Below are positions 7,730-16,839 of a stretch of DNA of 64,000 bases, piece after piece; the stretch's first letter is position 1, and each line of letters begins with the position of its first letter. Under the pieces are notes generated by a model that was not told the DNA's origin, made no database searches, and saw only the letters and a list, made by a program, of their open reading frames with translations. Position numbers and translations under genes: made by a program. Source of the DNA: Prochlorococcus marinus str. MIT 9201 (GTDB taxonomy: Bacteria > Cyanobacteriota > Cyanobacteriia > PCC-6307 > Cyanobiaceae); the NCBI RefSeq assembly GCF_000759955.1, contig NZ_JNAL01000007.1, forward strand, positions 1 to 64,000, in the 5' to 3' direction.

Positions 7730-7972
7730 TTACCAAACTACTTTTGTTCGCCTCCAGCCTTGTTCTAAAAACTTTTTCCATTCCTCTCTTGCTTTATCTA
7801 TCTTCAGTTCTTCTCTTGTGGTCATAACTGGAGGTTGTTCTCCAAAAATTCCAGTAATTTTTCCAGAGTCAATGAACATATATTCAAAGAATTTATCTTT
7901 GTTATGCTTGTTTTTATGGAATCTTTTTACTTTTGACCTATTGGAGTTTATAAGCCAATATTCTTCACCCAT
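7730..7972 (-). CDS. DUF1651-like small protein
   Basis: 80 aa. Begins MGEEYWLINSNRSKVKRFH and ends with REEWKKFLEQGWRRTKVVW, the W..L...GW..T..W ending I associate with the picocyanobacterial DUF1651 family. Soluble, basic. Its ATG overlaps the stop of the gene at 7965-8090 by 8 nt (ATGGGTGA). Last gene of a five-gene overlapping chain. Function unknown. Confidence 0.65.
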   Translation of the reverse strand: MGEEYWLINSNRSKVKRFHKNKHNKDKFFEYMFIDSGKITGIFGEQPPVMTTREELKIDKAREEWKKFLEQGWRRTKVVW

Positions 7973-8880: not shown

Positions 8881-9587
8881 CAGTTTAAGAAATTAACTAT
8901 CTTCTATAAGTGCCAGATTAACAGCCACATTTTTATTTGCAATAGAGAAAATTAACCAACTTAACTTAAATAACTTACTTAATATTTAATTCAGCTATTA
9001 AATTAATAAATATAAAACCTTCAAATAAAAAACTTTCTAAATTCAAGAAAAACTTTTGATTGAATTAGAAGGAACTTCTACTGATAACAATGATGCACCA
9101 TAATGAGATTCAGCTGATCTTATTAGTAACCAGTAAAAAAAGTTAACTAAAGCTTTCTCCACGAGGATTTAGTAACTAATCTACGTAACCTTATAAATTC
9201 TGTAATAGCAATATACCAAATAAATTTATTAAGCAATCAAGATATTTGTCTCAAAGCATGGATTTATGTCAATTACAAAAAAAATTTAACCCCAGGCTTT
9301 AGGCAGCGGACTAAATCCTCGTGGAGTATTGGACTTTAGCCCGCTCTATTTTTTTAGCAAAATAAAAAAGGCACTGCAATGAGGCTGAGCAACCAATTAC
9401 TATATTCAATTCTGAATTGGACTTTATCGGTTAATTAAATCAAGAGCATCTGAGCTTACCTTAGTGTTATTTATTGTATAAGCATGCTACGAGACTTTAG
9501 TTATATCAATAGATTCAGTATTTTTGCTCATTGATATATTTATTCTTGGAATAATATCATTATTGATGCCTGAAGGAGGTTTTAATT
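8881..9587. other. About 700-bp gene-poor stretch with an inverted repeat and a hairpin
   Basis: No convincing coding frame. It holds a perfect 17-bp inverted repeat (CTCCACGAGGATTTAGT at 9157-9173 and its complement at 9310-9326) and a strong hairpin at 9305-9345. The remainder is AT-rich and featureless to my eye. Confidence 0.5.
9305..9352 (+). terminator. Terminator-like hairpin, possible 3' end of a small RNA
   Basis: AGCGGACTAAA (9305-9315) pairs with TTTAGCCCGCT (9335-9345) at 10 of 11 positions, followed by CTATTTTTTTA. No gene ends just upstream on the plus strand, so this may end an untranslated RNA that starts between about 9160 and 9280. Confidence 0.5.
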
Positions 9588-9881: not shown

Positions 9882-9885
9882 AAAA

Positions 9886-9955
9886 TCGTCCGATCTACCA
9901 TCTGATAGACCGCAGTAAGACTCAAGCCATAGGACGGGGACTTGGGCATTTTCAG
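9886..9955 (+). ncRNA. Probable glutamine riboswitch (glnA / Downstream-peptide class)
   Basis: Outer stem P1 is CGTCC (9887-9891) with GGACG (9932-9936). Inside lie a TCTA..TAGA hairpin, then CGCAGTAAG, carrying the AGTA of the conserved E-loop region, and GCCATAGGACG on the 3' side. This order (CGTYC, hairpin, AGTA, GGRACG) is that of the glnA and Downstream-peptide RNAs, which bind glutamine. Downstream, CTCAAG (9921-9926) can pair with CTTGGG (9941-9946), giving an alternative fold close to the AGGAG before the peptide start. Genes under this riboswitch class encode GS inactivating factors or tiny peptides, which fits the 33-aa gene here. Confidence 0.65.
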
Positions 9956-15299: not shown

Positions 15300-15752
15300 A
15301 TATTTTATTTAGCCTACTTTCTTTTTAGCAATAATATTAATTCTTGTCAGTCTTTTAGATTAATTCCAAAAAGAATTTAATTTAAAAGATATCTATATAA
15401 ATATTGTGTTTGCTTGATTTTGAAATTAAAAGAGCTTGCAGGTATCCCACCGGCAAGCTCATGACGAACGAGTTAAATTCAGATTTTCTGATCTTAACCA
15501 ACTAAGCACTTCCTAAATGCTTTTCTTATAATAATGAGTAAAATTACTTAGTGTGAGTATAAATGCTCATTCGAGCGATTTACATTTACATTAATTAGTA
15601 AAATAAACTTTAATATCTATTAATTAATCAATTTCTTGCCAAAAATGGCACACCTCACTTATCTAACAAGTGGTTATAAGAGGGAAGATCTATTTATTAG
15701 TTTACAAAAGTTAATAATTATGTTACTTTTATTAATAATTATTTCTTATTAA
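15300..15752. other. Gene-free stretch upstream of hli
   Basis: No coding frame seen. It contains the strong hairpin at 15432-15460, a dyad GAGTATAAATGCTC near 15554, and TTTACAAAAGTTAATA at 15701-15716. The last resembles an imperfect HLR1 high-light element (direct KTTACA repeats) ahead of the hli gene. Confidence 0.4.
15432..15460. ncRNA. GC-rich hairpin, possible part of a small RNA
   Basis: GAGCTTGC pairs perfectly with GCAAGCTC, and inside it GGT pairs with ACC around ATCCC. It is isolated in non-coding AT-rich DNA with no T-tract on the plus side, so it is not a simple terminator. Either strand could be transcribed. Confidence 0.4.
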
Positions 15753-15959
15753 ATGTCAAATTCAGGTGTCACAAATGAATCAGGTGGAAGACAAAATATG
15801 TTCCCTTCTGAAACCAGACCTTATATAGATGAATCTGTATCATATGAAGGGTATCCTCAAAATGCAGAAAAAGTAAATGGCAGATGGGCTATGGTGGGTT
15901 TCGTTGCACTATTAGGTGCTTACATAACAACAGGTCAAATAATTCCAGGAATTTTTTGA
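15753..15959 (+). CDS. hli: High-light-inducible protein (Hli), 68 aa
   Basis: The N-terminal 38 residues are polar (MSNSGVTNESGGRQNMFPSE..), followed by EKVNGRWAMVGFVALLGAYI and the tail TTGQIIPGIF. E, N and R of the helix are the pigment-binding and salt-bridge residues of the Lhc superfamily. Thylakoid photoprotection role by family. A weak HLR1-like element lies about 40 bp upstream. Confidence 0.92.
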   Translation: MSNSGVTNESGGRQNMFPSETRPYIDESVSYEGYPQNAEKVNGRWAMVGFVALLGAYITTGQIIPGIF

Positions 15960-16591: not shown

Positions 16592-16732
16592 TTAGATAAA
16601 CCCAGGAATTATTTGACCTGTTGTTAGATATGCTCCAACAAGAGCTACAAAACCTAACATGGCAAACCTACCATTTAGCTTTTCAGCAACAATCTTTTCT
16701 TTCTCTATAGTTTTAGGTTCATTATTTTTCAT
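16592..16732 (-). CDS. hli: High-light-inducible protein (Hli), 46 aa
   Basis: MKNNEPKTIEKEKIVAEKLN then GRFAMLGFVALVGAYLTTGQ and the end IIPGFI: the Hli helix and tail. It starts in a TAATG junction, overlapping the stop of the upstream hli by one base, so the two are translationally coupled. A longer frame through both genes is out of phase with the upstream hli and not real. Confidence 0.9.
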   Translation of the reverse strand: MKNNEPKTIEKEKIVAEKLNGRFAMLGFVALVGAYLTTGQIIPGFI

Positions 16733-16839
16733 TAGAACCATCCAGGAATAATTTGACCAGTTGTTACGTAAGCGCCAACTGCCGCTACGAAACCTAACAT
16801 TGCTGCCCAACCGTTAAAACGTTCTGCTTCTGGAGTCAT
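16732..16839 (-). CDS. hli: High-light-inducible protein (Hli), 35 aa
   Basis: The shortest Hli here: MTPEAERFNGWAAMLGFVAA then VGAYVTTGQIIPGWF. It is almost only the pigment-binding helix plus tail. First of the tandem pair. Upstream on the minus strand TTTACATTGATAAATA resembles the imperfect HLR1-like motif before the hli at 15753. Confidence 0.9.
   Translation of the reverse strand: MTPEAERFNGWAAMLGFVAAVGAYVTTGQIIPGWF

Follow-up and report, generated by a model that had tools for sequence, protein, structure and literature searches.

The two arms of a 17-bp inverted repeat in Prochlorococcus marinus MIT 9201 are best read as parts of a small RNA (sRNA) and of its target, both encoded on the minus strand, with the sRNA blocking the translation of a 39-aa protein; we place the probability of this reading at about 0.65. 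The repeat lies in the window, that is, the whole 64,000-nucleotide stretch of DNA that was analyzed (contig NZ_JNAL01000007.1, positions 1 to 64,000). The reading is built on a conserved gene, a hairpin, a complementarity, and a shared promoter pattern, all of which can be read in the sequence, and from these we infer transcription, the RNA ends, repression, cutting, and a physiological role.

In the proposed mechanism, the sRNA, about 70 nt long, would be transcribed from a promoter of its own, starting near 9346, and would fold into a hairpin that exposes the loop CUCCACGA. This loop would contact UCGUGGAG, a stretch that includes the GTG start codon, in the mRNA whose 39-aa product is encoded directly downstream. 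The contact would grow into 17 bp of pairing over the start codon, so that translation would be blocked, and cleavage of the duplex may follow. The same genome has a second sRNA copy that could act likewise in trans. The sRNA would thus probably hold back the production of this uncharacterised protein.

The inverted repeat and the gene in its left arm

Positions 9157-9173 and 9310-9326 of the window are perfect 17-bp reverse complements with 136 nt between them, as a sequence-only reading had described. It is the only 17-bp inverted repeat within 400 nt in the window, against a mean of 0.05 and a maximum of 1 in 20 dinucleotide shuffles, and a chance origin is unlikely. The same reading placed the right arm in a separate 11-bp hairpin with a T-tract. 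The arm does lie within a local hairpin (9305-9345; plus strand, AGCGGACTAAA / TTTAGCCCGCT), but the plus strand pairs only 10 of the 11 positions and has one A.C mismatch. The T-tract is likewise present in the window (T7 at 9349-9355) but is not a conserved feature, since solo copies of the hairpin have TTTAAAAAAATAGC and some others TTTATATTTATAGC. A simple terminator scan, which covers only loops of 3-8 bases, reported no terminator at 9000-9450.

The repeat had also been described as having no gene around it, which does not hold: a 39-aa open reading frame with a GTG start (VEKALVNFFYWLLIRSAESHYGASLLSVEVPSNSIKSFS; 9162-9043, minus strand) begins within the left arm. The arm itself (9157-9173, minus strand) is the predicted target region, ACTAAATCCTCGTGGAG, and spans -11 to +6 of the GTG. 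A putative -10 element (TGC-TATTAC, 9210-9202) and a leader of about 33 nt would precede the gene on the same strand (together 9163-9210).

Among 62 extracted copies of the gene, which were selected through the 17-mer with at most two mismatches, 58 were open to 38-47 aa and four were shortened; the start codon was GTG in all save one ATG and one TTG. The median pN/pS was 0.28 (1586 pairs from 72 sequences, each with at least eight differences), and 88% of the pairs fell below 0.5; one displayed pair had 0.61. Variability at codon positions 1, 2, and 3 was 0.043, 0.034, and 0.119, the third being the most variable. Judged by these patterns, the gene is conserved in Prochlorococcus and under purifying selection. 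The protein search matched 22 of 40 genomes, namely 22 of the 25 of the genus and none of the 15 others. No match to the protein was found in Pfam, PHROGs, or NCBIfam (E up to 0.1), nor in PDB sequences (E up to 1), and neither the protein nor the DNA matched the phage collection. The protein appears to lack a typical membrane helix, because its Kyte-Doolittle maximum over 19 residues is only 0.64 (1.98 over 11 residues).

The small protein also has a second paralog (MEKSFLNFIYWILVKSAESYYGDS...; MED4 form MQKPFVNFLYWLLEKSAESYYGDS...), seen at L211, L212, L215, L216, and L033:6205-6336; in MED4 it lies directly downstream of the first small-protein gene. The hairpin leader was absent at the four second-paralog loci that were read (L211, L212, L215, and L216).

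Strand and putative promoter of the right-arm hairpin

The predicted sRNA occupies 9277-9346 on the minus strand and would end in a run of eight U (9284-9277); its ends are inferred, and its strand is assigned from mismatches and fold energies. Its hairpin (9305-9345, minus strand) has an 11-bp stem with a UCC/GGA extension and carries CUCCACGA in the loop; the covariance model R1 matches 9303-9371. The right arm, 9310-9326, corresponds to the predicted antisense segment CUCCACGAGGAUUUAGU.

Copies of the hairpin fall into three classes: those next to the small gene (B), solo ones (C), and those at other places (D). A first sorting by script gave 48, 83, and 23 distinct copies, respectively. 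The copies within one class are related, so the following counts are not independent. Stem cells that are A.C on the plus strand and G.U on the minus strand outnumbered the reverse by 42 to 5 (B), 166 to 3 (C), and 13 to 1 (D), and the minus-strand fold was the more stable in 39 of 50, 83 of 86, and 13 of 23 cases. Paired cells amounted to 88.6% on the plus strand (32 rows) and 96.4% on the minus strand (38 rows, with six diverged or further copies added), and the consensus fold energies were -8.8 and -15.7 kcal/mol. The distinct 60-mers that precede the hairpin on the minus strand contain the pattern TTG-N18-GCTA in 36 of 45 (B), 64 of 70 (C), and 21 of 21 (D) cases, whereas shuffles had it in 11 of 900, 2 of 1400, and 2 of 420; it ended exactly 10 nt before the GCGG of the hairpin in 32, 63, and 19 of these 60-mers. 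The agreement across classes at different loci is a stronger point than the counts within any class.

We read TTG-N18-GCTA as a putative promoter with a -35 element, a 17-bp spacer, and an extended -10 (TGC-TAAAAA). In the window these would be TTGCAG (9379-9374), a spacer ending in TGC, and TAAAAA (9356-9351), together 9351-9379 on the minus strand; a strict sigma-70 scan reported no promoter at 9000-9450. Mismatches, fold energy, and the shared promoter pattern all point to transcription of the right-arm hairpin from the minus strand.

The sequence-only reading had proposed a small RNA or attenuator on the plus strand, for which the hairpin and T-tract would serve as the terminator. The seven T after the hairpin in the window agree with this, and the 17-bp helix can form on that strand (-43.0 kcal/mol), but the conserved A.C mismatch, the lower degree of pairing, the fold weaker than that of the minus strand, and the loss of the T-tract from solo and other copies make it very improbable. 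What survives of the proposal is a small RNA with mutually exclusive pairings, on the opposite strand and with a different logic. An sRNA or decoy on the plus strand, in which the right-arm hairpin would share the orientation of the left arm, was also rejected, because the plus-strand mismatches become G.U pairs on the minus strand and the conserved TAGCA is the TGCTA of the extended -10. Small open reading frames in the right arm (such as VEYWTLARS and MDFSPLY) were set aside by eye, since their frames are not kept and their stops vary between copies.

Covariation in related strains, which had been named as a check, was not above shuffles in either the 32-row plus or the 38-row minus alignment. 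This is mainly because the element hardly varies; the 17-mer served as bait for many of the copies, so that its own constancy is partly by choice.

Predicted pairing, copies, and co-occurrence with the gene

The segment CUCCACGAGGAUUUAGU is perfectly antisense over 17 nt to the start region, and a second copy of the sRNA hairpin in the same genome, on contig C5, is complementary to the target over 20 nt. The computed duplex of the neighbouring copy with the mRNA leader had an energy of -48.9 kcal/mol, whereas 300 shuffles averaged -26.7 and reached -44.6 kcal/mol at the lowest; for the C5 copy the energy was -44.8 kcal/mol, and its 300 shuffles averaged -21.7 with a minimum of -37.0 kcal/mol. 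Eight bases of the antisense segment lie in the loop with an open probability of at least 0.95, and the target region folds partly paired within its own leader.

Across 77 distinct small-gene loci, the target was exact in 58, had only changes that keep a wobble pair in six, had a breaking change in 12, and belonged to another paralog in one. Against the consensus sRNA, no clear compensation was seen for the 12 breaking changes. The MED4 target has one C-to-T change that keeps a G.U pair. The sRNA copy in L272 keeps its stem through G.U pairing and can pair with its target except for one end base, the copies in L269 and L275 carry uncompensated changes, and the neighbouring sRNA copies in G243, G062, and G280 look decayed. 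The 11-mer ATCCTCGTGGA was searched in 10 genomes with up to one mismatch; among the matches listed, exact ones occurred only at known copies, and the number of one-mismatch rows was similar to that of the reversed control pattern.

In relatives, the stretch is present along its length with 80-89% identity. With up to two mismatches, the 17-mer matched 135 of the 151 genomes of the genus, a figure that includes chance and coding matches; the reversed control pattern gave 0-2 matches per genome. In a first set, model R1 matched 31 of 37 Prochlorococcus genomes and 0 of 23 others. Across the order, it matched 40 of the 42 genomes that are listed under the genus and 0 of the remaining 108, 90 of which are unlisted and were placed outside the genus by the kinship order of the rows. 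The single exact 17-mer among viral contigs (L199) was rejected as a viral carrier, as it reads by eye like a DNA polymerase gene; among the matches listed, one in Desulfobacteraceae (L160) seems to be a chance match.

The sRNA and its target do not always adjoin. In MED4, the sRNA copy (770,251-770,319) and the target (775,791) are 5.5 kb apart, and this separation, together with the C5 copy on another contig, implies that the pairing would act in trans. A switch or attenuator in cis, as the sequence-only reading had it, cannot be the general mechanism, because the two parts also occur far apart. A cis switch on the minus strand would have transcripts from the sRNA promoter read through into the small gene, with a leader that adopts either the local hairpin or the 17-bp helix hiding the start codon. 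The two parts are indeed on the same strand, 130 nt apart, and the computed fold of the minus stretch contains the 17-bp helix (-52.5 kcal/mol), as does that of a long leader, so that a read-through transcript in the window could still fold in the way first described. Given the kilobases or contigs that separate the parts in several genomes, and the eight-U run and separate -10-like site that lie between them, we regard such a switch as improbable.

A near-identical protein gene (E < 1e-13) was found in 37 of the 42 near-complete genomes of the genus, two of which (G129 and G163) have only interrupted copies of the type-1 protein gene. All 37 also matched the sRNA model, some of them imperfectly (G221, for instance, has a changed loop). 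Of the 40 genomes with the sRNA, three (G159, G064, and G279) had no near-identical protein, and two genomes (G022 and G127) had neither, G127 having the second paralog only. A hand calculation that treats the genomes as independent, which they are not, puts the probability of such a split at about 0.012.

The arms might instead be a relic of an inverted duplication of the leader hairpin, in which case the complementarity would be inherited and unused and the sRNA, if made, would have other targets or none. Both hairpins share ACTAAA/TTTAGT stems, and the three genomes that retain the sRNA without the near-identical protein, as well as the breaking changes in 12 of 77 targets, fit such an origin. 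It sits poorly with the constancy of the 17 nt across unlinked loci whose other loop bases vary (partly a search bias), with the 37 of 37 co-occurrence, and with the confinement of exact ATCCTCGTGGA sites to known copies in 10 genomes, among the matches listed. We consider a relic unlikely.

Solo copies that were inspected sit downstream of a gene of unknown family. A conserved protein of 120-132 aa is encoded upstream of solo hairpins at L042:392-757, L093:2668-3030, L020:2478-2876, and L217:1738-2121. Four of these proteins had no Pfam match, so a ribbon-helix-helix label for the gene, a sequence impression, was not used. In G010, a tandem repeat (L031:1705-1827; period 57, 2.2 copies) lies between the small gene and the sRNA copy. 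Diverged hairpin copies with an altered loop (CTCCACGAAGGATTAGT and CTCCACGTAGGATTAGT) were found at L228:939-1008 (MED4 1,350,538-1,350,607) and L270:256-325; the MED4 one adjoins an hli-like gene. The diverged hairpin is perhaps a paralogous sRNA with another target.

Comparison with known systems and genomic surroundings

FinP-traJ and CopA-CopT are loop-loop antisense RNA systems, whose RNAs are encoded opposite their targets on plasmids. The present pair resembles them in its complementary hairpins and in a predicted loop seed over the translation start region; it differs in that the sRNA lies at a separate chromosomal site.

The arrangement also resembles type I toxin-antitoxin pairs such as ZorO-OrzO, TisB-IstR-1, and ShoB-OhsC in having a protein of fewer than 60 aa (39 aa here), an sRNA gene close by (here the class B copy), and, by sequence, 17-20 nt of perfect complementarity to the mRNA. 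ZorO-OrzO has 18 nt of complementarity and works without Hfq (PMC3919570), and TisB-IstR-1 has 21 nt (PMC4147584). The sRNAs of these systems are divergently encoded and bind away from the start site, whereas the present sRNA gene either precedes its target on the same strand or is unlinked to it, and the antisense segment covers the start codon. Unlike the type I toxins, the 39-aa protein seems to have no typical membrane helix. By analogy with ZorO-OrzO and TisB-IstR-1, the sRNA may repress its target like a type I antisense RNA, with the protein as a candidate toxin. A genus-wide module similar to toxin-antitoxin systems, in which the antisense RNA masks the start codon and extra unlinked RNA copies are kept as safeguards, is a tentative extension that we think rather doubtful.

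Prochlorococcus has very few regulatory proteins, and Hfq is missing in most strains; the 2008 survey found none of the seven then-known toxin-antitoxin families in it and proposed Yfr6/Yfr14 and Yfr8/Yfr9 as candidates (PMC2518516). If the protein were toxic, the pair would be a type I toxin-antitoxin system in a genus where none of those seven families was found in 2008. Because the DNA alone reveals the predicted sRNA together with its likely target and precisely where the two would pair, a direct test would be simple.

Like Yfr8-21 (PMC2518516), the element is a short, conserved intergenic RNA of the same genus. The MED4 table in it, which covers Yfr8-21, has no entry at 770,251-770,319 or 1,350,538-1,350,607; beyond these RNAs, the sRNA may already be annotated under another name. 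No Rfam family scored above its gathering threshold for the sRNA, and the lone match below threshold, to a snoRNA model, reached 19.3 bits where the cut-off is 100 and seems to be a chance match. The motif strings appeared in no paper of the literature searched, and the element was absent among the matches listed for small proteins, conserved hairpins, and type I toxin-antitoxin systems in Prochlorococcus.

Yfr20, a light-responsive sRNA, and two hli genes lie in the window within 7 kb of the small gene and sRNA locus. Yfr20 and the two hli-like genes (NGR.AM motif) correspond to 15433-15522 (minus), 15753-15959 (plus), and 16592-16813 (minus). The relative G015 is taken as MED4 because its Yfr20 lies at 1336435-1336523, the same place as in the 2008 account, which assigns the MED4 Yfr20 to genomic island 5 (PMC2518516). 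A Glutamine-II riboswitch (Rfam RF01704, 55.7 bits) is present at 9884-9946 (plus) before a short open reading frame, 0.5 kb from the sRNA locus, and a DUF1651 protein (PF07864, E 4.4e-15) is encoded at 7730-7972 (minus).
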